39,300 nucleotides of DNA from Nitrospirota bacterium (GTDB lineage Bacteria; Nitrospirota; Nitrospiria; JACQBZ01), in NCBI GenBank assembly GCA_016201865.1, contig JACQCA010000027.1:1-39300 (forward strand). The letters run 5' to 3'. Below, one piece after another: positions 1-35,214 of this stretch (the first letter of the stretch is position 1; the number at the start of each line of letters is the position of its first letter). The notes below the pieces were generated by a model. The model saw only the letters and a list, made by a program, of their open reading frames with translations, made no database searches and had not been told where the DNA came from. Both the position numbers and the translations under genes were made by a program.

Positions 1-3000
1 AAACCCTCAAATCCGATCGCCGTCCGCCTGATCGCGGCACTGTGCGCTTTTCCGGCCGGGATGCTTGCCGCGCCTTGCGCGTTTGCGGACAGCGTCGGAC
101 AGGTGCAGACGACCAAGTTCCTGACGCAGGAGACGATTGACATGCTCATTGCCCGCGCCGGTTCCGGCATGCCGGGGCTGCAAGTCGGGGACACCATCAG
201 CTATATCATTCAATTTACACCCATCAACAACGGTTCGGACACCGGCGTGGCCGGTTATATTACGGACTATATCCCCACCGGCGTCGATGTGATCGGCGCT
301 TCGTTCGTTGCAAAAAGCGGAAGCAGTTTCTATGATATTTCGCCGGCTCTTCCGAACGGCGCCTACTCCGGCTGGGGCACCAGAACTCCGACCTACCTCG
401 CCCCGTTTAATGTGGCCGGGTACGACCCCACCGGGCGCTGCGCCGCGGGAGGATACACCAATAATTGCAGATCCCGCATGAGCGAATTGTATGCGGATAC
501 CGGCATCTTTTTCTCGACGGATTCGCGCACCGCGCAGTGTCCGTTACTGCCTACGCGCATTGCGCAGGGAACCAACGGCTATAAAATCAATCCCAATGGC
601 GCCGACGGACTCAATACGCTGCTGGATCAGACAAGCGCGACGACCCATAACCAGTGGGACGCCGCCAATACCAATGCCTTCGGAACGAGTTCGCTTGCTG
701 GCCAATCGGGTGCGTGTCAACAGACCCAGGCCATTCTCAGTTACAGTGGCGGCGCGCCTTATGGTCAGGGCGCCACGCCTTATTACGTCGGCTCGGCGGT
801 CGCCGGCCCGCAGACGGGTTATCAACTGGACTATACCAAACAAATCGGCCCCTGGCAGCGCATTTATTACCCCAACTCCCGCATCGGGAACAGCGCCCTC
901 GGTCCAGCTACGGCCGCGGGCGTTTTGGGCACCGTCGGCGGATCGTATACGAGTGTGGGCTGGAATCTTTCTTCCGGCAATCCGCTGCCGGCCGGAACCA
1001 ACGCAGTTCGCTGGGCCGTCGGCGGATTGACGGTGGGGACGCTTAATTATGTCAAGATCAGCATGCGCATTACCGCCGCGCCTCCGGCAAGCGGCATCGT
1101 CAATTCATCAGAGGTCTTCGGCGGCGACGCGAGCAGCTCGGGCGGCCGGGACAGCGTATGGAAGTATCATGTGCCGAGCGTGGCCGATAATAATTCCAAC
1201 CTCTATGTGCTCAAGACCGTGCTCGGGTATTATTCAGGCGCCGTATTAATTCCAACTGACGGCAGCTACATCCCGGCCAATGCCAAGATCCGCTACAGAA
1301 TTTCCTATCTCAATTCCGGGAATGCCGATCAAAACGGCGTCATTTTAAGCGATACCCTGCCGTGCCAGACGCCGATCGGTTCCATCACCAACATCGCGGT
1401 CAACAGCGGCCCCATCAGCGCGACGATAACCCCGGCCGCGCCCGCGAACGGCATCTGCGGCCTACCCGACACGCGGCGGACCGTGAGCTTCAACAACGGC
1501 GTCGGCGTGGTCTTGACGCCCGCGGCCGGCGGTTCGATCGATTTTGACGTGCAGACCAACGCAGGGACCGGCAGCATTGTCAGCAACACGGCCACCTTGA
1601 CCAGCGCGGCGATCAATCCGGGGGTTAACTCCGTTGCCCATTCTTATGTCCCCGCCTCGCCTTCGCCTAATCTGAGCATCAGTCTTACGACCTCTACACC
1701 GACGGTTGCGGGAGGCGGAACGGCCACCTATACGATTACGGTAATAAACAACGGCACCGCGGCCGCAGGCGGCATCAATGTATACGCACTGCCGCCCACA
1801 ACGGGGGGGGCGGCCAATGCGGCCACGCGCTTCACCTATTCAAGCACGACTTCCATCGTCGGCATGACCTCCGTGGCGCCGACCTCGGCGGTTCCGCCGA
1901 CCCTGACGCCTTACAGCGCGGACCCCTCCGCCGCCAATTGGCAGGAAACCCGTTGGAACTTCGGCGCGCAGACGCTTGCGGCCGGGGCGTCCTTTACCAT
2001 CACCTTCAATGCCGCGGTCGGAACATCCGTTCCGGCGTCGACGACCCCGTATTACAGCACCGCGGTTGTCACCTACACCGGCGGAACGGTTACCCGGACC
2101 GACGCCGTCAACGTCGCCCCGGTCACCGTAACCTCCACGCTCTCGATCACCATGAGCATCACGGACTTTTCCTCCGACGGCGGCGTTACCTGGACGGCCT
2201 ACGGCAATTATATTCCGCCCAACGCCCGGGTCCGCTATCGGATCGATTATGCCAACACCGGGGCCGGCACGGTGACCAACGCGAACATCTCCGATTTGCT
2301 GCCCTGCCAGACGGCGGCCGGTTCGGTGAGCAACATTGTCATCGTGAGCGGCCCCATCGGCCTCCCGGCGACCATTCCGGGCGCCGGAAATTGCTCCACC
2401 GGCACGCGGCCGAGCTTCACTTTTACCTCGGCCAATCTTGCGGCCGGACAGGTCGGGCAGATCACCTTTGATGTTCAGACCAACGCCGCGAACGGCAACA
2501 TCGTGGTCAATACCGCCACCCTGAGCGCCATCGGAGCGTCTCCAACAATCAGCGAGGTTCAGACAACGGTGCAGTCAACCCTGGTGCCGACCGTCGCCAA
2601 GACGAACGGCACCAACACCCTAACCCCGGGCGCCACCACCAATTATACGGTCGTCATCACCAACGCCACCGGCGCCGCGCAAAGCGGCGTGACCTTCAGA
2701 GACCCGGCCGTCACCAATCTCACGGTCAACACCGTAACCTGCACCGCCGCCACCGGCGGAGCGGTCTGCCCGGCCGGCGCCACCGTGACCGTTTCGGCCA
2801 TGCAAGGCTCGGGCATCCCGATCACCTCGTCCATGCCCAACGGCAGCAGCGTGACCTTCACCCTAAACGCCACCCTCAACGTCGGCGCATCCGGCACGCT
2901 CACCAACACAGCCAGGGTCAACGTCAGCAGCCAAACCAACCAGGTCAGCGACACCGACACCATCAAACAGACCGTCAAGTTGAAGATATTCGGCTGGCGG

Positions 3001-3012
3001 GAGAATTATTAG
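1..3012 (+). CDS. Secreted DUF11-repeat surface protein, 5' end cut off
   Basis: The frame is open from base 1, so the true start lies just upstream; the first internal ATG is at 61. The opening residues form a hydrophobic stretch ending in AAPCAFA before DSVGQ, which looks like a Sec signal peptide. About 1003 residues are visible, very rich in Thr, Ser, Ala, Gly and Asn. DUF11-type beta-sandwich modules are seen near 1690-2130 (ATYTITVINNG) and 2600-2960 (TNYTVVITNATG). Another module occurs twice, near 1255-1630 and 2200-2545; both copies have an IPxNAxxRYRI opening, a central LPCQT motif and an FDVQTNA close. The protein ends in FGWRENY with no membrane anchor, LPXTG or visible sorting domain. 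The role is probably cell-surface or extracellular; no enzymatic function can be assigned. Composition resembles the other core genes. Confidence 0.75.
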   Translation, partial: KPSNPIAVRLIAALCAFPAGMLAAPCAFADSVGQVQTTKFLTQETIDMLIARAGSGMPGLQVGDTISYIIQFTPINNGSDTGVAGYITDYIPTGVDVIGASFVAKSGSSFYDISPALPNGAYSGWGTRTPTYLAPFNVAGYDPTGRCAAGGYTNNCRSRMSELYADTGIFFSTDSRTAQCPLLPTRIAQGTNGYKINPNGADGLNTLLDQTSATTHNQWDAANTNAFGTSSLAGQSGACQQTQAILSYSGGAPYGQGATPYYVGSAVAGPQTGYQLDYTKQIGPWQRIYYPNSRIGNSALGPATAAGVLGTVGGSYTSVGWNLSSGNPLPAGTNAVRWAVGGLTVGTLNYVKISMRITAAPPASGIVNSSEVFGGDASSSGGRDSVWKYHVPSVADNNSNLYVLKTVLGYYSGAVLIPTDGSYIPANAKIRYRISYLNSGNADQNGVILSDTLPCQTPIGSITNIAVNSGPISATITPAAPANGICGLPDTRRTVSFNNGVGVVLTPAAGGSIDFDVQTNAGTGSIVSNTATLTSAAINPGVNSVAHSYVPASPSPNLSISLTTSTPTVAGGGTATYTITVINNGTAAAGGINVYALPPTTGGAANAATRFTYSSTTSIVGMTSVAPTSAVPPTLTPYSADPSAANWQETRWNFGAQTLAAGASFTITFNAAVGTSVPASTTPYYSTAVVTYTGGTVTRTDAVNVAPVTVTSTLSITMSITDFSSDGGVTWTAYGNYIPPNARVRYRIDYANTGAGTVTNANISDLLPCQTAAGSVSNIVIVSGPIGLPATIPGAGNCSTGTRPSFTFTSANLAAGQVGQITFDVQTNAANGNIVVNTATLSAIGASPTISEVQTTVQSTLVPTVAKTNGTNTLTPGATTNYTVVITNATGAAQSGVTFRDPAVTNLTVNTVTCTAATGGAVCPAGATVTVSAMQGSGIPITSSMPNGSSVTFTLNATLNVGASGTLTNTARVNVSSQTNQVSDTDTIKQTVKLKIFGWRENY

Positions 3013-16694: not shown

Positions 16695-17288
16695 GTGGAA
16701 CGCGATGATCTGGAAGAGTTACACTACATTACACCGATTAAAAACATACCTTCAATCTGTCGTTTAGGAATCTTGTCGCATCGGAAGGCTGAAACATTAA
16801 AACATGAATCCGTAGCGATGGAGGAAATTCAAAAACGTCGAGCCAAGAAAACCGTTCCTCCAGGGCGTTTGCTGCACGATTATGTGAACCTCTATATTTG
16901 CGCTCGGAACAAGATGCTCTTCAAAATTCACAGCCAGCACGAGAAGTTGTGCATTCTGCGAATCGGTCCAACAGTTCTTGATCTTCCGAGGGTTATTGTG
17001 TCGGACCGAAATGCATCGAGCGATTATGCCCGTTTTGAGCCGGCACCCTCAGGTCTTCGAGTTATTGATCGAGATCTGGTTTTCGCAAAATACTGGACAC
17101 ATCCTGATGACCCATTTGAAGAGATGAGACATGGATCTATAAAATGTGCAGAGGTACTTGTTCCGGACAGCGTTCCATATCGGTTCATCATGGGAGCTTA
17201 TGTGTCCGGCAATGAGTCTTTGACCCGCTTCAATGCATTGGATGTAAACGTCCCGGCCAGCATCAATGGGGATTTGTTCTTCCGATAA
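16695..17288 (+). CDS. darT: DarT toxin, DNA ADP-ribosyltransferase
   Basis: DarT attaches ADP-ribose from NAD+ to thymidine (or guanosine) in single-stranded DNA, blocking replication; with DarG it forms a toxin-antitoxin and phage-defence pair. The 197-residue product matches the DarT (DUF4433) fold: LHYITPIKNIPSICRLGILSH (NAD-binding His10 and following loop), HDYVNLYICARNKML with Arg71, and KCAEVLVPDSVP with Glu153 in the catalytic position. It appears intact. The GTG start is the only in-frame choice and lacks a clear ribosome binding site, which could keep toxin levels low. darG follows after 10 bases. The region is visibly richer in A+T than its flanks. Confidence 0.92.
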   Translation: MERDDLEELHYITPIKNIPSICRLGILSHRKAETLKHESVAMEEIQKRRAKKTVPPGRLLHDYVNLYICARNKMLFKIHSQHEKLCILRIGPTVLDLPRVIVSDRNASSDYARFEPAPSGLRVIDRDLVFAKYWTHPDDPFEEMRHGSIKCAEVLVPDSVPYRFIMGAYVSGNESLTRFNALDVNVPASINGDLFFR

Positions 17289-17298
17289 GGAGGCCCAC

Positions 17299-18426
17299 AT
17301 GGTCAAAGTTCTAATAGGGGATCTCTTCCAATCAGAAGCGCAGACACTTGTTAATACGGTCAACTGCATCGGCGTGATGGGCAAGGGCATTGCTTTGCAA
17401 TTCAAGGAACGTTTTCCGGATATGTATGAGGATTATGTCCGGCGATGCAAAGCTGGAGAAGTTAAGCTCGGACAACCTTATCTGTATCGCTCTCTGATGC
17501 CGCCGTGGGTCTTAAACTTTCCGACGAAGGATCACTGGCGATCAGTGGCCAGATTACAGGATATTGTTCGTGGTCTGGAATATCTTGAACGCTACTATGT
17601 TGAGTGGGGCATTGCTTCATTAGCAGTCCCGCCTTTGGGATGCGGCGAGGGTCAACTCGAATGGCGCGTGGTCGGGTCGACGCTCTACCGTCATCTAAAG
17701 CGCTTCACCATACCCGTGGAGCTTTACGCGCCCTTCGGAACCCCTCATGAGGAATTGCAGCCAGCATACTTAGAAGGTGCTCTGACAGGTAATGGAACGA
17801 AGACGTCATCTACATCTCCTAGGCACATTGAACCTTCATGGGTCGCACTTGTAGAAATACTGGATCGGCTCGAACAGGAGCCTTATCACTGGCCGGTAGG
17901 CCGGATCACGTTTCAGAAAATTGCCTACTTCGCGACCGAATCTGGTATTCCGACAGGGCTTCAATACCAACGGGGCAGCTTTGGTCCCTATGCTCCGACA
18001 CTGAAAAGTCTCGTCACGAAGCTTGTGAATAACGGTCTTATTTGTGAGAAGCGCCATGGCCAGATGTTTTCGGTAAAGGTCGGACCCACCTTTGAGGACG
18101 CCCACAAGGCTTATGAGGATGACCTTGCTCAGTGGCGAACAACCATAGACAAACTTGCAGATCTCTTCATGCGTATGCATACCAAACAAGCTGAACTGGC
18201 GGCAACAGTGCACTTTGCGGCCAGTTCTCTAATACAACAGGGTCAAGAGAAGCCGAGTGAAATGGATGTCCTGAACGAAGTTATGAAGTGGAAGCAGAAA
18301 CGGCGGCCACCGTTAAACAAAGATGAAGTTGCCCTTGCAATTCGAAACCTGAGCATGCTGGGCTGGCTGGACGTCAAGCCGAGTGCGGATCTGCCTGTGA
18401 AGGAAGAGGCTCTACTGGATGTCTGA
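17299..18426 (+). CDS. darG: DarG antitoxin, macrodomain DNA ADP-ribosylglycohydrolase
   Basis: DarG removes ADP-ribose from DNA and also binds and blocks DarT. The 375-residue product has an N-terminal macrodomain (about residues 1-155): VKVLIGDLFQSEAQTLVNTVNC, GVMGKGIALQF, NFPTKDHWR (Lys77 in the position of the catalytic lysine of known DarG proteins, from memory) and PPLGCGEGQLEW. The C-terminal domain (about 180-375), with KIAYFATESGIPTGLQYQRGSFGPYAP, resembles the Panacea/SocA-like (DUF4065-type) antitoxin fold and should contact DarT. The ATG at 17299 has a strong AAGGAGG site, much better than that of darT, which suits antitoxin excess. Confidence 0.93.
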   Translation: MVKVLIGDLFQSEAQTLVNTVNCIGVMGKGIALQFKERFPDMYEDYVRRCKAGEVKLGQPYLYRSLMPPWVLNFPTKDHWRSVARLQDIVRGLEYLERYYVEWGIASLAVPPLGCGEGQLEWRVVGSTLYRHLKRFTIPVELYAPFGTPHEELQPAYLEGALTGNGTKTSSTSPRHIEPSWVALVEILDRLEQEPYHWPVGRITFQKIAYFATESGIPTGLQYQRGSFGPYAPTLKSLVTKLVNNGLICEKRHGQMFSVKVGPTFEDAHKAYEDDLAQWRTTIDKLADLFMRMHTKQAELAATVHFAASSLIQQGQEKPSEMDVLNEVMKWKQKRRPPLNKDEVALAIRNLSMLGWLDVKPSADLPVKEEALLDV

Positions 18427-23945: not shown

Positions 23946-24317
23946 GTGCCAGGAAATTTTATCCCCGTTAATTATCTTCCGATCGTAATCTTTATCGCCA
24001 TTGCATTGGCGTTTGGCGGCGTGACGCTTCTGCTCGGCACCCTCCTACGGCCGCGGCGGATCTACAAGGCCAAGCTGACGCCGTACGAAAGCGGAAACAT
24101 TCCCTTTTCGGACGCCCGCGCCCCGTTCCCGTTGCGCTACTACATCATCGCGATGATCTTCGTGATCTTTGATATCGAGACGGTCTTTCTGTATCCCTGG
24201 GCCGTGGTCTACGACAAGATCGGCCTTTACGGTCTGGTCGAGATGACACTGTTTATCTCGGTTCTCTTGGTCGGGTATATCTATGCCTGGAAAAAAGGGG
24301 CGTTGGAATGGGATTGA
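23946..24317 (+). CDS. nuoA: NADH-quinone oxidoreductase subunit A
   Basis: NuoA is a three-helix membrane subunit near the quinone site of complex I. The 123-residue product has hydrophobic segments at about residues 10-33, 66-88 and 96-115, and the family motif [32 protein letters not shown], which holds the conserved loop that moves in the active/deactive transition. The start is GTG with an AAGGGGG site. It is the first gene of the operon and overlaps nuoB by 10 bases. Confidence 0.96.
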
Positions 24318-24787
24318 TCGACCGGCAGTTTGAGGCCAACGTCATCACGACCTCGGTTGATTCCGTCGTGAGCTGGGCCCGGAAGTCGTCGCTCTGGCCG
24401 ATGACCTTCGGTCTGGCCTGCTGCGCGATCGAGATGATCGCAACGGTTTCTTCGCGGTACGACATCGACCGGTTCGGCGCGGGCGTCTTCCGCGCCTCGC
24501 CGCGGCAGTCGGACCTGATGATTGTGGCCGGGACGGTCTGCCGTAAGATGGCCCCCGTGATTCGTCGTATTTATGATCAGATGCCCGAGCCGCGTTATGT
24601 GATCGCGATGGGATCCTGCGCCACGTCCGGGAATCATTACAACAGTTACAGCGTCGTTCAGGGGGTGGATCAAATCGTTCCGGTGGACGTCTACGTCCCC
24701 GGCTGTCCGCCCCGGCCGGAGGCGCTGCTCCAGGGGCTGATGATGCTCCAGGAGAAGATCAAGCACGAGAAGGTTTTTGTGAAATAA
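24308..24787 (+). CDS. nuoB: NADH-quinone oxidoreductase subunit B
   Basis: NuoB carries the terminal [4Fe-4S] cluster N2, which passes electrons to quinone. In the 159-residue product all four ligands are visible: C38 and C39 (GLACCAIEM), C104 (GSCATSG) and C133 (PGCPPRPE). Length is typical. The start lies inside nuoA, suggesting coupled translation. It forms the quinone pocket with NuoD. Confidence 0.97.
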
Positions 24788-24798
24788 ACCGAGCCACC

Positions 24799-25302
24799 AT
24801 GACTCACGAAATCGCGCAGAAAATTCAGGAGACGTTCCCGATCGAGTTCATCGAGGCGAACGAGTTTCGGGGCGATTGGACCGTGGTCGTGAAGCCGGAT
24901 CGCATCGTCGAGATCGCCCGGTTTCTCCACGACGACCCCGATCTGGAGTTCGACCATCTTTCCGATATCTTCTCGGCGGATTATCCCGGTCGAGAGAGCC
25001 GGTTTGAAGTGGTCTATCAGTTGAACTCGATCCGGAAACGTCATCGCCTCCGGCTCAAGGCCGGCCTCCGGGAGGATCGGTGCGAGATCGACTCGGTCCA
25101 TCCGGTCTGGAGGGCGGCCGGTTTCTTGGAGCGCGAGGTGTACGACCTGATGGGGATCCGGTTCCGCAACCATCCCGACCTCCGTCGGATCTTTCTCCCC
25201 GAAGACTTCGACGGGCATCCCCTTCGCAAGGAGTACCCCGCCGAGGGAAGAGGGTGGCGAAATACCTTCGACTTCCTTCCCACCGAGGAGCCTCAGGCGT
25301 AA
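24799..25302 (+). CDS. nuoC: NADH-quinone oxidoreductase subunit C
   Basis: NuoC is the 30-kDa subunit of the peripheral arm. The 167-residue product has the family signature EREVYDLMGIRFRNHPDLRRIFLPEDF and the HPLRKEYP end. It is separate from NuoD, not fused as in E. coli. It starts 11 bases after nuoB. Confidence 0.96.
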   Translation: MTHEIAQKIQETFPIEFIEANEFRGDWTVVVKPDRIVEIARFLHDDPDLEFDHLSDIFSADYPGRESRFEVVYQLNSIRKRHRLRLKAGLREDRCEIDSVHPVWRAAGFLEREVYDLMGIRFRNHPDLRRIFLPEDFDGHPLRKEYPAEGRGWRNTFDFLPTEEPQA

Positions 25303-25311
25303 CGCACCTTC

Positions 25312-26577
25312 ATGGAATCTCAAACCCGACAGGATCAATCGATGGGTGCAAACCCGGCATCTTTCAACGACACCGAGCCCCGGCCGATTACCGAAGATCT
25401 CCCACTCCGCCGGAGCGAGGAGGTTCTTTTGAATATGGGCCCTCAGCATCCCGCAACCCACGGCGTTCTCCGGGTGGTGCTGGAGTTGGAAGGCGAGAAG
25501 ATCATCAAGGCGACGCCGGACTTGGGCTATCTCCATCGGGGTGTTGAGAAACTGTGCGAAGGGTTGACCTATCAGCAGATCATTCCCCATACCGACCGCC
25601 TGGACTATATCTGTTCCATGACCAACAACTTCGCGTACGTTCGCGCCATCGAGAAACTTCTGGGGGTTTCGATTCCGGAGCGCGGGGAGTATGTCCGGAC
25701 GATCATCGCCGAGATGCAGCGGATCGTGGGGCATCTTTTCTGGCTGGGGACGCAGGCGCTGGACATCGGCGCGATGACGATCTTTTTCTGGACGTTCCGC
25801 GAGCGGGAGGTCCTGCTGGACCTGTTTGAGCAGACCTGCGGGGCGCGACTGACGATGAACTATTTTCGGATCGGCGGCGTGAACGGCGATCTCAAGCCGG
25901 AAGTGATCGCCCGGCTCCGAACGTTCCTCGCGGATTTTCCATCCAAGATCGATGAATACGACCGTCTTCTTTTGAACAACCGAATCTGGCTTTCACGGAC
26001 CAAGAATATCGCAGTGATCTCTGCCGAGGATGCCGTCAATTTCGGGCTGACCGGGCCGGCGCTGCGGGGGTCGGGCGTCTATTACGACGTGAGAAAGGCC
26101 GAGCCCTATGCGGCGTATGGCAAAGTGGATTGGGATGTTCCGTTGGGATCGAACGGCGACACCTACGACCGGTACCGGGTCCGGATGCAGGAGATGAAAC
26201 AGAGCGCGCGGATCATCGCGCAATGCCTGGATCAACTTCCGGAGGGGCCGGTCTTAACGGATGTCCCTCAGGTGGTGGCCCCGCCCAAGGAAAAGGTGAT
26301 GCAGGACATGCAAAGCCTCATCCATCATTTCATCATCTTTACCGAAGGCTTCCGGCCGCCGAAGGGCGAGGTCTACTGCGCGACGGAGGCCCCGAAAGGC
26401 GAGCTGGGTTTCTCGATTGTGAGCGACGGAAGCCCCAAGCCCTACCGGCTCAAAATCCGCTCGCCGTCCTTCGTTCATCTCGGGGCGTTCGATCACATGG
26501 CGCGGGGCTACATGATCGCCGACATCGTCACGATCTTCGGGACGTATGACATCGTAATGGGGGAATGCGATAGATAG
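25312..26577 (+). CDS. nuoD: NADH-quinone oxidoreductase subunit D
   Basis: NuoD (49-kDa subunit) forms the quinone-reduction chamber with NuoB. The 421-residue product contains NMGPQHPATHGVLRVVLELEGE (with the quinone-binding His), YLHRGVEKL (Arg76 in the motif methylated in mitochondria), HTDRLDYICSM, and the C-terminal SFVHLGAFDHMARGYMIADIVTIFGTYDIVMGECDR. The N-terminus before LRRSEE is longer than usual; a second ATG at 25342 with AGGA upstream is an equally good start. It is 9 bases after nuoC. Confidence 0.96.
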   Translation: MESQTRQDQSMGANPASFNDTEPRPITEDLPLRRSEEVLLNMGPQHPATHGVLRVVLELEGEKIIKATPDLGYLHRGVEKLCEGLTYQQIIPHTDRLDYICSMTNNFAYVRAIEKLLGVSIPERGEYVRTIIAEMQRIVGHLFWLGTQALDIGAMTIFFWTFREREVLLDLFEQTCGARLTMNYFRIGGVNGDLKPEVIARLRTFLADFPSKIDEYDRLLLNNRIWLSRTKNIAVISAEDAVNFGLTGPALRGSGVYYDVRKAEPYAAYGKVDWDVPLGSNGDTYDRYRVRMQEMKQSARIIAQCLDQLPEGPVLTDVPQVVAPPKEKVMQDMQSLIHHFIIFTEGFRPPKGEVYCATEAPKGELGFSIVSDGSPKPYRLKIRSPSFVHLGAFDHMARGYMIADIVTIFGTYDIVMGECDR

Positions 26578-26584
26578 ATCAACC

Positions 26585-27112
26585 ATGAATCCTGAGACGA
26601 AAAAGGTGGAATTTTCCGAGAAGGCCCAAAAAGAGATTCGAGAGATCCTGACACATTATCCGGATAAACGATCGGCGATGCTTCCGGTACTGAACCTGGC
26701 CCAGGCTGAGTTCGGCCATATCAGCGAGGACGTGATGGTCATGATCGCAGATCTGCTCGACCTCACGCCGCCGAAGGTGTACGAGGTTCTGACGTTCTAT
26801 ACGCTTCTGAACGAGAAACCGGTGGGCAAATACCTGATCCAGCTCTGCCGGACGCTGTCCTGCGCGCTGGCCGGTTCCGAAAACATCCTCGGCCATCTCA
26901 AGCAACGGCTGGGAATCGGGATCGGCGAGACGACGCCCGACGGACTGTTTACGTTGAAGACCGTGGAATGTCTCGCCTCCTGCGGGACGGCGCCGGCCAT
27001 GCAGGTCAACGGGGCGTTTTACGAGAACCTGACGCGTGGAAAGGTGGACAAAATTCTGGATGACTTGAAACGGGGAGCGCAGCCGGTCTTGAAACCGATG
27101 GGGGAGAATTAG
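26585..27112 (+). CDS. nuoE: NADH-quinone oxidoreductase subunit E
   Basis: NuoE (24-kDa subunit) holds the [2Fe-2S] cluster N1a in the NADH-oxidising module. The 175-residue product has the four ligands C88, C93, C129 and C133 (LCRTLSC and VECLASCG). The N-terminal helical domain (YPDKRSAMLPVLNLAQAEFGHI) is typical. It starts 7 bases after nuoD and is 3 bases from nuoF. Confidence 0.97.
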   Translation: MNPETKKVEFSEKAQKEIREILTHYPDKRSAMLPVLNLAQAEFGHISEDVMVMIADLLDLTPPKVYEVLTFYTLLNEKPVGKYLIQLCRTLSCALAGSENILGHLKQRLGIGIGETTPDGLFTLKTVECLASCGTAPAMQVNGAFYENLTRGKVDKILDDLKRGAQPVLKPMGEN

Positions 27113-27115
27113 CGG

Positions 27116-28426
27116 ATGAAGTACGAAAAGGTGCTTCATAAGAATTTAGAGACGCCCGGATATGCCGGCAGCCTGGCCGACTATGAGCGGCTTGGCGGTT
27201 ATCTTGCGATTCGCAAGGCCTTGAAGGAATACGCACCGGCCCAACTGATCGACCTGGTCAAACGGTCCGGGCTTCGCGGACGCGGCGGCGCGGGTTTTCC
27301 GGCCGGGATGAAATGGGACTTCCTTCCGAAAGACCCGGCCATCACCCGATACCTCTGCTGCAACGCCGACGAGAGCGAGCCGGGGACGTTCAAAGACCGT
27401 CAGCTGATCGAGCGGGACCCGCATCAGTTGATCGAGGGAATGATGCTGGCCGCCTACGCCATCGGGGCCAGGGTCGGTTATATCTATATCCGCGGCGAGT
27501 TCGTCTACGGAGCGCAGGTGCTGCAGCGGGCCCTGACCGAGGCCACCCGGGCCGGCTATCTGGGGAAAAATATTTTGGGGAGCAGGACGGAGATTGATCT
27601 CCACCTCCATCGCGGCGCCGGGGCCTATATCTGCGGCGAAGAAACCGCGCTTCTGGAATCCATCGAGGGCAAACGCGGGCTGCCGAGGACGAAACCGCCT
27701 TTCCCGGCCATCCACGGGCTGTACGGAAAGCCGACCGTGATCAACAACGTCGAAACCTTGAGCAACCTCCCCCATATCGTCAATCGGGGCGTTGAATGGT
27801 TCATCTCGATCGGCTCGTCTCCCAAAAGTCCCGGGACGCGGATCTTCTCGGTCAGCGGCCATGTGAACCGGCCGGGCAATTACGAGGTGCCGATGGGAAT
27901 CCCGCTTAGGGAACTGATCTACGAGCAGGCCGGCGGGGTGCGGAACAACAAACGAATCAAGGCCGTCATTCCCGGGGGGGCCTCCGCGGCCTTTCTGACC
28001 GAGAGCAGCCTCGATGTGAAGATGGATTTCGAGGCGATTGCGCAGGTCGGTTCGATGCTCGGCTCCGGCGGCGTCACCGTGATGGATGAAGACACCTGCA
28101 TGGTCCGGGCCGCGCTCAACCTGATGGAGTTTTTCGCCCATGAGACCTGCGGGAAATGTTCGCCCTGCCGTGAAGGATCCTCCTGGCTGGTCCAGATCAT
28201 GCGGCGGATCGAGCACGGGCATGGAAGAGCGGAAGATCTCGATCAACTGGTCCGGATCTGCAACAACATCGGCGGCAAGACGGTCTGCGCGTTCGGCGAT
28301 GCCGAGATCGCGCCGATCCTGAGCACGCTCAAACATTGGCGGTCGGAGTACGAATACCATGTTAAAGAAAAACGGTGCATGGCGGGAGACCGGGGCGAGG
28401 AATTGGTTGGGATTGGGAGGCATTGA
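27116..28426 (+). CDS. nuoF: NADH-quinone oxidoreductase subunit F, NADH-binding
   Basis: NuoF (51-kDa subunit) binds NADH and FMN and holds cluster N3. The 436-residue product shows the NADH-binding GLRGRGGAGFPAGMKW, the FMN-binding CNADESEPGTFKDR, YIYIRGEFVYGAQVL, and ETCGKCSPCREG with C345, C348 and C351 plus C391 as N3 ligands. All key residues seem present. The presence of NuoE, F and G means NADH (or a similar donor) can be used, unlike the 11-subunit forms of complex I. Confidence 0.97.
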   Translation: MKYEKVLHKNLETPGYAGSLADYERLGGYLAIRKALKEYAPAQLIDLVKRSGLRGRGGAGFPAGMKWDFLPKDPAITRYLCCNADESEPGTFKDRQLIERDPHQLIEGMMLAAYAIGARVGYIYIRGEFVYGAQVLQRALTEATRAGYLGKNILGSRTEIDLHLHRGAGAYICGEETALLESIEGKRGLPRTKPPFPAIHGLYGKPTVINNVETLSNLPHIVNRGVEWFISIGSSPKSPGTRIFSVSGHVNRPGNYEVPMGIPLRELIYEQAGGVRNNKRIKAVIPGGASAAFLTESSLDVKMDFEAIAQVGSMLGSGGVTVMDEDTCMVRAALNLMEFFAHETCGKCSPCREGSSWLVQIMRRIEHGHGRAEDLDQLVRICNNIGGKTVCAFGDAEIAPILSTLKHWRSEYEYHVKEKRCMAGDRGEELVGIGRH

Positions 28427-28431
28427 ATCCT

Positions 28432-31149
28432 TTGTCTGAATCTGTGCAGATCAAAACCGAGACGGTCAAATTGACAATCGACGGACGGGAGGTGGTCGTC
28501 CCCAAGGGCACGCTGGTGATCGAGGCGGCCCGTGCGCTTTCGATCGAGATTCCGTTCTTCTGCTACCACCAAAAATTAAAATCCGACGGCAACTGCCGAA
28601 TGTGCCTCGTCAGCATCGAGAAGATGCCGAAGCTCCAGGTCTCCTGTTCGTTGCCCGTTTCCGAGGGCATGGTTGTTCAGACCAACACGTCGGTCGTGGC
28701 GGACGCGCGCAAAGGCGTGCTGGATTTTCTTCTGGCGAATCACCCGCTCGACTGCCCGATCTGCGACGAAGGCGGCCGTTGCCCGCTCCAGAACTACTCG
28801 CAGAAATACACCGCGTACGGGCAGTTCAAGGAGGAAAAGCGGATTTACCCGAAGGACTATTTCAGCCCGCTGATCGAGAAGGAGATGAACCGCTGCATTC
28901 AGTGCATGCGGTGCGTCCGGTATTGCGACGAGGTGATTGATTCCCAGGCCCTCTCTTCCGTCAACCGGGGTTTTCACGTCGAGATCGGCCATTACGCCGA
29001 AAAGCAGCTCGATTGCGAATTCTGCGGCGGCTGCGTCCAGATCTGTCCGGTCGGGGCCTTGCTGAACCGGCTGCCGTTGTATGAATACCGTCCCTGGATG
29101 CTGACCCAGACCGAGACGACCTGCGCCTACTGCGCCGACGGCTGTTCCCTTCGCCTTGAAAGCCGTCCGCAGACCCGCGAGGTGATCGAGGTGACCTCGT
29201 TCTGGGGCAACGAGACGAAAAGCGTCTGGGGATCCGGGCGAAACGAGGGCGATCTCTGCGCGAAGGGCACCTTCGGATACGAGTTTGTGAACAGTCCGCA
29301 TCGTCTCACCAAGCCCCTCGTCCGCAAAGGGGGTCGAAAGGACGGTCCCTTGGTCGAGACCTCCTGGGAAGAGGCGTTGGAGACGGCGGCGGACGGTTTC
29401 CGTCGCATCAAGACTCAGCACGGCGGCGCGGCCTTCGGCGCGCTGGCCTCGGCCCGCTGCACCAACGAGAGTCTTTACGTTTTTCAAAAGTTCGTCCGTC
29501 TGATCCTTGGAAGCCCGAATCTCGACAGCAGCGTGCGGTACGGAGCGGTGAATGCGGCCCGTGCGATGACCGAACTGACCGGCACGCCGCGGTGGCTCAC
29601 ATCGTATGAGGAGATCACACGGGCCGATCTCGTTTTCGTGATCGGGACGGACATCACGCAGACGAACCCGATCGCCGGCCTGAAGGTCAAGGCCGCGGCC
29701 AAACGGGGGGCGAAGTTGATCGTGGCCACGCCGCTTCGGCGTCGGATCAGCACGTTGAGCAACATCGTCAATCGGGCGACGCGGCACCTGGCCCATGCCC
29801 CCGGCGCGGAACGCGCCATCGCGATCGGACTGGTGAAGGCCGTGTTGGAGGAAGGGCGGCTCGCAGAAAGAGTCGCCTCGCATCGTTCAACCCAAAGGCT
29901 TCGCGATGCGGTCGCCGCGATCACCCCCAAGCAGATCGAGAGAGCAACCGGTTTGCCGTATGAAGAAATCAAGGCCGCCGCAGGGGAGTGGGCCTCGGCC
30001 TCCCGCGCCGTGATCGTCTTTGGGGAGTCGGTCATCCGGGCCAAAGATGGATACGAGACGGTCCGCATTCTCGGCGATCTGGCCTTATCGACCGGCAAGC
30101 TCATCGCCGACGGCTGTGGGCTGGCGCCCTTGATGGAAGAGAACAATGAGATGGGGGCCTATGAGATGGGCGTCGTCCCGGACCGGCTGCCGGGCGTGGG
30201 GCGGTTGGATGACGAATCCGACCGCGACCGAATCAGCCGCGCCTGGAAGGAGCCCATTCCGGCCGGGCCCGGCCTCACGATGATGGAGATGCTTAAAGCC
30301 GCTCGGGATGGAAAAATCAAGGCGCTCTATCTCATGGGAGAGAATCCGGTCGGCAGCCTTCCGGCATCGGCCGGCGCGGCCGAGGCGGTGGAGGCGACCG
30401 AATTCGTCGTATGCCAGGATCTTTTCTTGACCGAGACGGGGATGAAAGCCGACGTGGTCTTGCCGGCCGCCAGTTTCGCCGAGCAGAACGGGACTTTCAC
30501 GAATCAAGAGGGACATGTTCAGGCGGTGCGCAAAGCCTTCGATCCCGTCCAGGGAACGCGGCCGGACTGGGAAATTCTATCCGAGATCGCGCTCGAGATG
30601 GGTTATCCGCTGGAGTATGAGGACGGCGCAGAGATCTCGCACGAGATCGCCCGGCTCTGGCCCGGCTGGAGGGAGTTGCCGAAGCGTTCGGAACAGGAAG
30701 AAGCGGTCGCGCGATATCTCAACGAGGAATTGGCCGAAGGAGTTTCTGAACGGTACCGTCTCGATCGCAAGACGGATCATTCCGTTGCGCCGAACCACCG
30801 GTTCCGTCTGGTCCTGGGCCCGGTGCTGTTTCATTCCGGCAAGATGTCCCTTAAGGCCGACGGGCTGATGAAGGTCATGGGTCGGCCCTTCCTTTATATG
30901 GCGCCGGAGGATGCCGAGCGGCTGGGGGTGACGGAGGGACGGCTGGTCCGGCTCCGGTCGGCCTATGGGCCGGTGCAGCGATCGGTGGATGTCGAGGTCA
31001 AGATGGACGCAAAATACCCGCCGGGGCTGGTCTTCTTTCCCGAATCGTTCAATGAACCACCGGTGAAGGATTTGCTGACGGTGGAGCTCGCTCCGGTTTC
31101 CGGCGTGCCGGTTTTTAAAACGACGGAGGTTTTGATTGAGAAGGCTTAA
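28432..31149 (+). CDS. nuoG: NADH-quinone oxidoreductase subunit G
   Basis: NuoG is the large iron-sulfur subunit of the peripheral arm. From a TTG at 28432 (GGGAGG 11 bases upstream) it has 905 residues; TTG 28423 and GTG 28444 are alternatives. Ligands seen: [2Fe-2S] C44, C55, C58, C72; N5 H104, C108, C111, C117; two ferredoxin-like sets C155/158/161/165 and C195/198/201/205; and a molybdopterin-oxidoreductase-like domain opening with C231, C234, C238 and C276, the distant N7 cluster. The second complete CxxCxxCxxxCP set is more like that in hydrogenase or formate dehydrogenase subunits than in E. coli NuoG. No molybdenum cofactor is implied. Confidence 0.93.
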   Translation: MSESVQIKTETVKLTIDGREVVVPKGTLVIEAARALSIEIPFFCYHQKLKSDGNCRMCLVSIEKMPKLQVSCSLPVSEGMVVQTNTSVVADARKGVLDFLLANHPLDCPICDEGGRCPLQNYSQKYTAYGQFKEEKRIYPKDYFSPLIEKEMNRCIQCMRCVRYCDEVIDSQALSSVNRGFHVEIGHYAEKQLDCEFCGGCVQICPVGALLNRLPLYEYRPWMLTQTETTCAYCADGCSLRLESRPQTREVIEVTSFWGNETKSVWGSGRNEGDLCAKGTFGYEFVNSPHRLTKPLVRKGGRKDGPLVETSWEEALETAADGFRRIKTQHGGAAFGALASARCTNESLYVFQKFVRLILGSPNLDSSVRYGAVNAARAMTELTGTPRWLTSYEEITRADLVFVIGTDITQTNPIAGLKVKAAAKRGAKLIVATPLRRRISTLSNIVNRATRHLAHAPGAERAIAIGLVKAVLEEGRLAERVASHRSTQRLRDAVAAITPKQIERATGLPYEEIKAAAGEWASASRAVIVFGESVIRAKDGYETVRILGDLALSTGKLIADGCGLAPLMEENNEMGAYEMGVVPDRLPGVGRLDDESDRDRISRAWKEPIPAGPGLTMMEMLKAARDGKIKALYLMGENPVGSLPASAGAAEAVEATEFVVCQDLFLTETGMKADVVLPAASFAEQNGTFTNQEGHVQAVRKAFDPVQGTRPDWEILSEIALEMGYPLEYEDGAEISHEIARLWPGWRELPKRSEQEEAVARYLNEELAEGVSERYRLDRKTDHSVAPNHRFRLVLGPVLFHSGKMSLKADGLMKVMGRPFLYMAPEDAERLGVTEGRLVRLRSAYGPVQRSVDVEVKMDAKYPPGLVFFPESFNEPPVKDLLTVELAPVSGVPVFKTTEVLIEKA

Positions 31150-31170
31150 CAAACTGCGGAGGAACGGTTG

Positions 31171-32193
31171 ATGATTCAAACCGCCTTGAATTTAATCGTG
31201 GTGCTCGTGACGATCGGCGTCGTGATGGCGGTGGTGCTGCTTCATGTGGCCTATCTGACTTATTTCGAGCGAAAAATCCTGGGATGGATGCAGGACCGGA
31301 TGGGTCCGATGGAGGTGGGCTATCACGGGCTGCTCCAACCGATTGCGGACGGCCTGAAACTTTTCTTCAAGGAAGACATCGTCCCGGCGCAGGCCAACAA
31401 GATCATTTTTACGCTGGCGCCCATCCTGGTTCTGGTCCCGGCACTGATCGGGTTCGCCGTCGTCCCCTTCGGGCGGGATTCGATTCATCTTTTCGGCCTG
31501 ACCTTCAGGCCGTATGTCACCGATCTCAATATCGGGATCCTCTACATTCTGGCCTTCGCCTCGATCGGGGCCTACGGTGTTCTATTGGGCGGCTGGGCCT
31601 CGAACAACAAATATTCGCTTCTGGGCGGCTTGCGATCGGCGGCGCAGGTGATCAGCTATGAGCTGTCGCTGGGCCTGGCGATTGTCGGCGTGCTGCTGAT
31701 GGCCGGTTCTTTAAGCCTGGTCAAGATCACGGAGGCCCAGAACGGAGGGGCGCTGCACTGGTTCATCCTCCCGCAGTTCGTGGCCTTCGTGATCTACCTG
31801 ATCTCGGCGGTCGCCGAGACGAACCGCCTGCCGTTCGATCTTCCGGAGGCCGAGAGCGAGCTGGTGGCCGGCTTTTTCACCGAATACAGCGGGATGCGAT
31901 TTGCCTTTTTCTTTCTGGCCGAATATGCTAACATGATCCTCGTTTCTTGTATCGCCACGATCCTTTTTCTGGGAGGATGGCATGCGCCGTTCGAAGCGCT
32001 CTCGTTCATCCCGCCGATTCTCTGGTTTGCGGGCAAGGTCTATTTCTTTCTGTTCTTCTATATCTGGATTCGGGGAACGCTGCCCCGTCTCCGATACGAT
32101 CAGCTCATGATGTTCGGCTGGAAGGTCATGATCCCGCTGGCGCTGGCCAATATCCTGGTCACGTCGGTGGTCTTGTTTTTTATAAGGGGATAG
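31171..32193 (+). CDS. nuoH: NADH-quinone oxidoreductase subunit H
   Basis: NuoH is the eight-helix membrane subunit that joins the peripheral arm to the proton pumps and forms the quinone entry. The 340-residue product has [39 protein letters not shown] and [31 protein letters not shown], both hallmarks. The ATG at 31171 has GGAGG 8 bases upstream; an adjacent in-frame TTG at 31168 is less likely. Confidence 0.97.
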
Positions 32194-32748
32194 ATGCTCA
32201 GCCACCGTGGATTCCATCACCGACTGAAACGATTCTTACAACAGGTCCTATTTTTAGAAATCCTGGCAGGGATGGCCGCGACCTTCAAGCATCTTTTCAT
32301 CCGGCGCGTTACGATCCAGTACCCACACGAAAAACGGGTGCTTCCCAACGGCTACCGCGGCTTTATCGCCCTTCTGCGGTATGACGACGGGACCGACAAA
32401 TGCGTCGGTTGCGATCTGTGCGAGGCGGCCTGTCCGTCGCGCGTGATCACGGTGATCAGCGCCGAGGTGGAAGGCCAGCCGCTCAAACGGTACGCAAAGG
32501 AATACACCATGGACATGACCCGCTGCGTCTTCTGCGGGTTGTGCGTGGAGGCCTGCCCGGTCAACGCCTTGGGAATGACCAAAGAATACGAATACGCGAC
32601 GTATGACAAGCGGAATCTGAAGCTCAATAAGGAACAGTTGCTGACCATCGGGGATCGGGCCTTTCCGGTCCGGGAGACACGCGTCGAATTTCAGCATCCC
32701 CACGCTGCCTTCTTCAACGTGGCGCATCGAGGCTACCCTGTCAAGTGA
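32194..32748 (+). CDS. nuoI: NADH-quinone oxidoreductase subunit I
   Basis: NuoI carries the two [4Fe-4S] clusters N6a and N6b. The 184-residue product has both complete motifs: C70/73/76/80 (CVGCDLCEAACP) and C111/114/117/121 (CVFCGLCVEACP). The start follows the nuoH stop with no gap. Confidence 0.97.
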   Translation: MLSHRGFHHRLKRFLQQVLFLEILAGMAATFKHLFIRRVTIQYPHEKRVLPNGYRGFIALLRYDDGTDKCVGCDLCEAACPSRVITVISAEVEGQPLKRYAKEYTMDMTRCVFCGLCVEACPVNALGMTKEYEYATYDKRNLKLNKEQLLTIGDRAFPVRETRVEFQHPHAAFFNVAHRGYPVK

Positions 32749-32811
32749 AGCGCCTCGCCTGTTCCTTCCGTATGCGATCACGATATTCGGTTCGATGCTC
32801 AAAATGAAACC

Positions 32812-33333
32812 ATGACACTGGTTCTGTTTTTTTATTTTGCAGCCGTCATCGTGGCGACGGCGATCCTGGTGGTCGCGCTGCACAAGCCGATCTACAGCGC
32901 GCTGTCGCTGTTGGTCATGTTTTTTCATGTGGCCGGGCTGTTTGTGCTGCTCGACGCCGAGTTTATCGCGGCGGTCCAGATCATCGTCTACGCCGGCGCC
33001 ATCCTGGTGCTCTATCTCTTCGTGCTGATGCTGCTGAATGTCCGGGCGGACGAAGGGTATCATCAGCAGTTTCGGATCGGTCTGATCGTCGGATTGGCGG
33101 TCCTGGTCGAGGCGATCTTCGTCTTGGGCCAATCCGGATTTGCGGATCGCGACCCCGCGGCCGTTCCACCGGCCGCGCCCGTTCCGGGAAACACCGAGGG
33201 CATCGGCCGGGCGCTCTACACGACCTATCTTTTTCCGTTTGAAGTGGCGTCGCTGATCCTCCTGGTTGCGATGATCGGAGCGATCATTCTCGCGAAAAAA
33301 GGGATCTTCGGAAAAGAGGAGCGGGGACGATAA
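32812..33333 (+). CDS. nuoJ: NADH-quinone oxidoreductase subunit J
   Basis: NuoJ is a five-helix membrane subunit next to NuoH, with the pi-bulge helix thought to couple quinone chemistry to pumping. The 173-residue product shows the family motif [28 protein letters not shown] Pro/Ala-rich periplasmic loop (about residues 105-125) precedes the last helix. It lies 63 bases after nuoI, the largest gap inside the operon, and overlaps nuoK by one base (TAATG). Confidence 0.96.
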
Positions 33334-33635
33334 TGGTTCCGCTGTCGTATTACGTGATTCTCAGCGCGATCGTTTTCTTCATCGGCGTCATCGGCGTCCT
33401 GATCCGGAGAAACATCATCATCCTTCTGCTCTCGATCGAGCTGATGCTCAATGCCGCCAACATCAACTTCGTGGCTTTTTCTCATTATCTGAAAACCATC
33501 ACCGGCCAGGTCTTCGTCTTTTTTGTGTTGACGGTGGCCGCGGCCGAAGTGGTGATCGGTCTGGCCATCCTCATCGCGCTTTACCGCGGGAAGGCCACCG
33601 TCAATGTTGAAGAAGTCAACCTGATGAAATGGTGA
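33333..33635 (+). CDS. nuoK: NADH-quinone oxidoreductase subunit K
   Basis: NuoK is a three-helix antiporter-related (MrpC-like) subunit. The 100-residue product is full length, with [16 protein letters not shown] in helix 2 and [20 protein letters not shown] in helix 3; both membrane Glu residues needed for proton transfer are present. It ends in TGATG, overlapping the short frame that follows. Confidence 0.97.
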
Positions 33636-33775
33636 TGCCGACCGACGCGCTCATCCCACTGCTTTCCTTCGTCGCCTTCGTGATCATCGGCCTGTCGGAC
33701 CTCATCGGCCCCGGGCTGCGCAAGACGGCGGCCCCGGCGCCGCTGCAGCTTTCGGAGGTCTGGACACGGCCATGA
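33635..33775 (+). pseudogene. 46-codon remnant at the nuoL-nuoM position
   Basis: Between nuoK and nuoN there is room only for this frame. It starts with an ATG overlapping the nuoK stop (TGATG) and ends with a TGA overlapping the nuoN start (ATGA). Residues 1-30 ([20 protein letters not shown] onward) resemble the first helix of NuoL (LIPLLPLLGF style). The last 16 residues (about TAAPAPLQLSEVWTRP) are not hydrophobic and could derive from the NuoM C-terminus, though I cannot confirm that. Full nuoL plus nuoM would need about 3.4 kb. The reading is an in-frame deletion fusion, or an assembly collapse across related genes. Confidence 0.6.
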
Positions 33776-35214
33776 CGTTTTCCGTGACCGACATCGGCGC
33801 CGTCCTTCCGGAAATCCTCATCGCGGTTTACGCCTGCGCCATCCTCCTGATCGAGCCGTTCCTGCCCAAGGATCGCCGGGAGATCCTGGCCTATTTCGGA
33901 CTGGCGGCGTTGGGACTGGCTTTTATCGCGACATGGCAGCTCCTATGGGCCGATCTGACGGTCTTGAACGGGATGTTCGTTCTGGATCCGTTCGGCAATT
34001 TCTTCAAACTGTTGCTGTATGTCGCGGCCATAATGACCATCCTGCTCTCGATGGGTTATCTCCGGCGCGAGAGGATCGATCTCGGGGAGTATTATGCCTT
34101 TATCCTGCTGGCCATCTGCGGGATGATGATCATGGTGTCGGGTTCGGATCTCGTCACGGTCTTCTTGGGGCTCGAGCTGATGTCGATCACCTTCTATATC
34201 CTGGTCGGCTTCAAACGTTTTGAGGAAAAATCCCTGGAGGCCTCGGCTAAATATTTTATTCTGGGATCCTTCTCGTCCGGAATTCTATTATTCGGCATCT
34301 CGCTTTTGTACGGCCTCTCCGGGACGACGAACTTGGAGGCCGTGGCCCTTCATCTTCGGGGCGCGGATCCGGGCAATCCGGCCTGGGTCCTGGCCGTGAT
34401 CCTCCTCGTGGCGGGGTTCGGTTTCAAGATTGCGGCCGTCCCGTTCCATATGTGGGCGCCGGATGTGTACGAAGGCGCGCCCACGCCGGTCACGGCCTTT
34501 CTCTCGGTCGGCTCCAAGGCGGCCAGCTTTGCGGTCTTCCTCCGCGTCTTCATGGAGGCCCTGGGCGGGATTCATGCCGACTGGCGGTTCCTGCTCATTC
34601 TGCTTTCGGTGATCACGATCGTGATGGGCAGCGTGGTGGCGCTGGTTCAGACCAACATCAAGCGGATGCTGGCCTACTCCGGCATCGCCCATTCCGGTTA
34701 TGCCTTGATCGGCCTTCTCGTCGGAGACCGTCTCGGGATCTTCAGCCTGATGCTTTATATGCCGATCTATGCCGTCATGACGCTCGGCGCTTTCGGCGTC
34801 GTGACGCTGCTTCGCCGCGGGGGCGTCGAAGGGGACGCGATCGACGACTTCGCGGGTCTGGCCAAAAAGAACCGGCTGGCGGCCTTGGCGATGCTGATCT
34901 TCATGTTCTCGCTGGCCGGGATCCCGCCGACAGCCGGCTTCATCGCGAAATTTTATATCTTCATGGCGGCCGTGAACGTCCATCTGACCTGGCTGGCGGT
35001 TCTTGGCGTGATCTTCACGGCCGTCTCGGCCTATTTCTATCTCAAGGTCGTGATGGTGATGTACATGAAGGAGCCCGATGAGGAGGTCCATCTGGCCGCC
35101 CCGCCGGCGGTCGTGATGGTCCTGGCGGTCGCGGCCGTCGCGGTCTTGCTGCTCGGGATCTATCCCGGCCCGTTTTTGGATTATGCCCAAAATGCGGCAT
35201 TGAAGATTCGATAG
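33772..35214 (+). CDS. nuoN: NADH-quinone oxidoreductase subunit N
   Basis: NuoN is one of three antiporter-like proton-pumping subunits. The 480-residue product has about 14 membrane helices and the conserved pump residues: E135 in FLGLELMSITFYIL, K218 in FGFKIAAVPFHMWAPDVYEGAPTP, and a later Lys in GIPPTAGFIAKFYIF. It is intact and of normal length. With NuoL and NuoM missing from the locus, it is the only large pump subunit encoded here. It is the last gene of the operon; no terminator is visible after it. Confidence 0.97.
   Translation: MTFSVTDIGAVLPEILIAVYACAILLIEPFLPKDRREILAYFGLAALGLAFIATWQLLWADLTVLNGMFVLDPFGNFFKLLLYVAAIMTILLSMGYLRRERIDLGEYYAFILLAICGMMIMVSGSDLVTVFLGLELMSITFYILVGFKRFEEKSLEASAKYFILGSFSSGILLFGISLLYGLSGTTNLEAVALHLRGADPGNPAWVLAVILLVAGFGFKIAAVPFHMWAPDVYEGAPTPVTAFLSVGSKAASFAVFLRVFMEALGGIHADWRFLLILLSVITIVMGSVVALVQTNIKRMLAYSGIAHSGYALIGLLVGDRLGIFSLMLYMPIYAVMTLGAFGVVTLLRRGGVEGDAIDDFAGLAKKNRLAALAMLIFMFSLAGIPPTAGFIAKFYIFMAAVNVHLTWLAVLGVIFTAVSAYFYLKVVMVMYMKEPDEEVHLAAPPAVVMVLAVAAVAVLLLGIYPGPFLDYAQNAALKIR

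Follow-up and report, generated by a model that had tools for sequence, protein, structure and literature searches.

The complex I operon of the window (39,300 nt, the whole of contig C40) carries a single 46-codon frame in the place where nuoL and nuoM are expected, and it is likely that both genes have really been deleted from this genome. The explanation favored here, to which we give as a whole a probability of about one in two, combines a real deletion of ca. 3.4 kb with a short complex I encoded beside a second complex I of the 2M/MrpD type. The window belongs to a single metagenome-assembled genome of 2.47 Mb (97 contigs, 95% complete), the only one of its species and genus in the comparison, and its top matches among named genomes were Nitrospirota metagenome-assembled genomes.

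The operon, designated I_1, lies on the forward strand and extends from the start of nuoA at 23946 to the end of nuoN at 35214. The initial annotation was right in that nuoA to nuoK and nuoN are all intact and follow the canonical order: nuoA, B, C, D, E, F, G, H, I and J occupy positions 23946 to 33333, with nuoE and nuoF at 26585 to 28426 and nuoH at 31168 to 32193, and are followed by nuoK (33333 to 33635), whose product has both Glu36 and Glu72. NuoN (33772 to 35214) displays the charged motifs GLELMS, AKYFILG, FKIAAVPFH, GSKAASF and IAKFYIF. All peripheral arm subunits (NuoB, C, D, E, F, G and I) and all proximal membrane subunits (NuoA, H, J and K) are thus encoded, and NuoN is the only member of the antiporter-type trio NuoL/NuoM/NuoN found in the operon. 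The order of nuoA to nuoK followed by nuoN is that of canonical NDH-1 (nuoA-N), from which the window differs in that nuoL and nuoM are cut down to the 46-codon frame. The hallmark of 2M complexes, namely a second NuoM together with a lengthened NuoL, is missing from the window operon, the genes for NuoM1 and NuoM2 being located on another contig, C47.

The 46-codon frame (33635 to 33775, forward strand) fills a gap of 136 bp between nuoK and nuoN, is in frame throughout, and joins nuoK through a TGATG overlap and nuoN through an ATGA overlap. Its codons 1 to ca. 29 (33635 to 33721), which cover the first transmembrane segment, share 67% identity with NuoL residues 2-28 of the relative G005, in agreement with the earlier view that the frame begins like NuoL. 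Its last ca. 15 codons and the stop (33725 to 33775) correspond to the NuoM ends of the relatives, which read AAPLQLSEVWTRP / AAPFQLSEVWTRP; the alignment of the last residues that had been proposed identifies the end of the frame as a NuoM C-terminus. Alignment with the nuoL starts and nuoM ends of four relatives placed the deletion junction at 33716 to 33728, where ca. 3.4 kb are missing when compared to the sister genomes. Judged from these alignments, the frame is a nuoL-nuoM fusion. No match to the 46-residue product was obtained with Pfam and NCBIfam profiles. The TGATG and ATGA overlaps, already pointed out in the initial annotation, have counterparts of the same kind in the relatives, where the K/L and M/N junctions are intact, and by this comparison they are inherited.

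Six genomes of the same family were found, four of which (G001, G002, G003 and G005) carry the same operon with nuoL-nuoM. In these four, nuoK and nuoN are separated by 3447-3589 bp that hold complete nuoL and nuoM genes, and this comparison with sister genomes, which had been suggested as a check, supports the proposal of an in-frame deletion between the start of nuoL and the end of nuoM. A search of named genomes with NuoN returned 80 loci, 51 of which hold both nuoK and nuoN; L- and M-type genes were present between the two in all of these (51/51), and the arrangement observed in the window is far beyond what chance would give. Among the relatives, a short repeat coding for LPAGQAG was observed as an in-frame insert in NuoL of G005 (L122) and also near the NuoM C-terminus of G002 (L125), at a site close to the position of the window's junction. 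This repeat was considered as a mediator of the deletion and rejected, the palindromic pattern built from it being absent from the window.

A different situation was found in G004, where the gene after nuoK of I_1 begins like MrpD1 and not like NuoL. The contig ends flanking the MrpD cassette in this genome match the ends of its second complex I with full identity over exactly 141 bp (cassette loci L166 on G004:C11, L126 on G004:C24, L191 on G004:C18 and L156 on G004:C31), and in both of its complex I operons, the otherwise canonical one included, NuoL seems to be replaced by one and the same MrpD cassette. Remodeling of the pumps is therefore seen in this family independently of the window. 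Two further NuoM-NuoN loci, L042 and L043, display two weakly NuoL-like antiporter genes (26-33%) upstream of NuoM, a pattern suggestive of an MrpD pair in NuoL's place there too.

Homologs located elsewhere in the genome had been proposed as a possible source of the missing pumps. Searching the whole genome with the antiporter domain PF00361 revealed eight places, and queries with sister proteins gave best matches of 48% identity for NuoM (on C47) and of 31% for NuoL (on C20). Antiporter homologs thus exist, solely in another complex I and in a hydrogenase-type cluster, and neither PF00361 nor the relatives' NuoL and NuoM detected any orthologue of the I_1 type. The hydrogenase-type cluster, located on C77 (L010, 210-10728), is Hyf-like and membrane-bound with three antiporter subunits, and is preceded by two CO dehydrogenase/acetyl-CoA synthase epsilon-type proteins (PF02552).

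The other complex I is distributed over two contigs. C20 (L011) carries nuoA, B, C, D, G, I, J and K together with an MrpD-like gene, while C47 (L009) carries a NuoL/MrpD2-type C-terminus, two NuoM and one NuoN. The two look like parts of one 2M-type cluster in which an MrpD pair replaces NuoL, because their gene order and identity match intact clusters in G002 and G003. The body of MrpD2 is missing between C20 and C47, and no further copy of the C47 start, which would reveal a second MrpD2 cassette, was detected in the bin. From this arrangement we infer that the second complex I has five antiporter-type subunits. It resembles Complex_I_3 of the Manganitrophaceae, which has been described as restricted to that family (PMC9040806). 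As assembled, the second cluster has no nuoE, nuoF or nuoH, as is also the case for the 2M clusters of Nitrospira (PMC6606698). The nuoH gene of the window encodes the only Nuo-type NuoH found in the genome, and both complexes must therefore share this subunit.

This dependence is the basis of the best placed of the alternatives to a working short enzyme, in which the deletion is real, the I_1 complex is dead or dying, and the operon persists chiefly as a source of NuoH (and NuoE and NuoF) for the second complex I. Both the single Nuo-type NuoH and the lack of E, F and H in the second cluster, which has its parallel in Nitrospira, speak for such a role. Against it, no relaxation was seen in the subunits for which the second cluster encodes a paralogue (A, B, C, D, G, I, J, K and N), although a recent deletion would hide any. 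More generally, no relaxed evolution was detected when the twelve remaining I_1 subunits were compared with those of relatives having intact nuoL-nuoM: branch lengths are broadly equal, and so are the numbers of substitutions at positions that are otherwise invariant, with NuoN showing three such substitutions, all conservative, versus none or one in the relatives. These normal rates, together with the charged motifs kept in NuoN and the glutamates kept in NuoK, suggest that the operon either still works or was cut recently; the rates by themselves are equally compatible with a working short enzyme, a recent deletion and an operon that no longer functions. On balance, an operon maintained chiefly as a supplier is unlikely.

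The reality of the deletion itself was weighed against an assembly artefact, in which nuoL-nuoM would still be present in the genome and simply skipped by the contig. This was the main rival put forward in the initial annotation, as a collapse of homologous antiporter genes. The sequence is a metagenome assembly in 97 contigs, another antiporter stretch (MrpD2) is also missing from the bin, and in the sister G004 a duplicated MrpD cassette broke the contigs exactly in this slot. However, the case of G004 also illustrates that a repeat normally breaks a contig and gives no clean in-frame join. In the assembly of the window, contig ends overlap mutually by up to 141 bp, which is the signature of a de Bruijn graph with k=141, and there the presence of an intact allele at similar depth would be expected to break the contig at the junction. 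The junction DNA occurs once in the genome, and no word of at least 14 nt is common to the junction and C20, C47 or C77. When the relatives are used as a proxy for the missing stretch, the two breakpoint regions have just 8-9 bp in common, which is not enough for repeat collapse to have made the join; no repeat capable of causing a collapse at the junction was thus found in the genome's own contigs or, above 9 bp, in the relatives. Finally, residue 11 of the remnant is a Ser where 55 of 58 aligned rows have a Pro, the three exceptions being internal fragments and not N-termini. This single substitution hints weakly at lost constraint, and since the Pro should have been retained if the remnant were part of a nuoL that is still intact, it argues against an artefact. 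Taken together, the strong but indirect evidence from the unique junction, the absence of any repeat longer than 9 bp, the k=141 assembly and the broken conserved residue makes a skipped nuoL-nuoM rather improbable.

The remaining alternative, that the deletion is real and that the distal pumps of I_1 (NuoM1, NuoM2 and the MrpD pair of C20/C47) are provided in trans by the second complex I, giving hybrid complexes, finds some basis in the NuoH that both systems must already share and in the exchangeable NuoL slot illustrated by the MrpD start after I_1 nuoK in G004, but it is quite improbable given that NuoM1 of C47 is just 48% identical to NuoM of the sister I_1 operons and that the second cluster has its own NuoN.

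Under the preferred reading, that of a real deletion and a short complex I, an in-frame loss of ca. 3.4 kb would have joined codon ca. 29 of nuoL to the last ca. 15 codons of nuoM and would be dominant in the sampled population. The overlaps between nuoK, the remnant and nuoN would have been left in place, so that NuoN would still be translated. The operon may then produce a short complex I made of NuoA to NuoK and NuoN and restricted to the proximal pump module, namely the NuoH/A/J/K channel and NuoN, and by analogy proton pumping by such an enzyme might be roughly halved per electron pair, to ca. two protons per NADH. The second complex I would carry the long pump array and might take its NuoH, and perhaps its NuoE and NuoF, from I_1. 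By analogy with the laboratory systems described below, a functional short complex I is plausible, with chances that are even at best. The fuller picture is more doubtful: a short complex I, natural and working, whose single antiporter-type pump is NuoN might stand in the same cell beside an extended 2M/MrpD-type complex I, for which five antiporter-type subunits are proposed, the two having NuoH in common and acting as low-gear and high-gear versions.

With NuoL and NuoM absent and NuoN retaining its charged pump motifs, the gene set of the window operon resembles that of the nb8m-delta subcomplex of Yarrowia lipolytica, which is devoid of ND4 and ND5, is active and has half the proton stoichiometry (PMC3160329, PMC9271201). 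Both lack the ND5/ND4 (NuoL/NuoM) homologs and keep the proximal pump module; nb8m-delta was however obtained by laboratory deletion of an accessory subunit, whereas in the window it is the genes of the pumps that are missing, and the genome is an environmental one. According to work cited in PMC9271201, E. coli complex I devoid of NuoL assembles and still pumps ca. 1 H+/e-, again near half stoichiometry; as presented there, this nuoL deletion is a laboratory construct missing NuoL alone, whereas the window operon lacks both L and M. Altered pump numbers have been described within the same phylum for the 2M complex I of Nitrospira (clade 3) and for Complex_I_3 of the Manganitrophaceae (PMC6606698, PMC9040806), but these complexes gain pumps while the window operon loses two. 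No report of a natural complex I devoid of both L and M was found in the open-licence literature.

The number of protons moved per antiporter subunit is debated, as is whether NuoN and the E-channel can pump alone, which the "ND5-only" model denies. If the preferred reading is true, the window would provide a natural half-length pump of a kind previously known just from laboratory mutants, and these questions could be tested outside such mutants, in a naturally occurring complex I that lacks NuoL and NuoM. It would also indicate that the number of pumps can fall as well as rise in a group known for adding pumps to complex I, and a short complex I of low yield may be useful where the driving force is small.

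Outside the nuo operon, two other regions of the window were noted. A DarT-DarG toxin-antitoxin pair is located at 16695-18426 (DarT, E 1e-40; DarG, E 3.5e-94, with a macro domain), and a protein of 983 residues with four DUF11 repeats is encoded at 61-3012.
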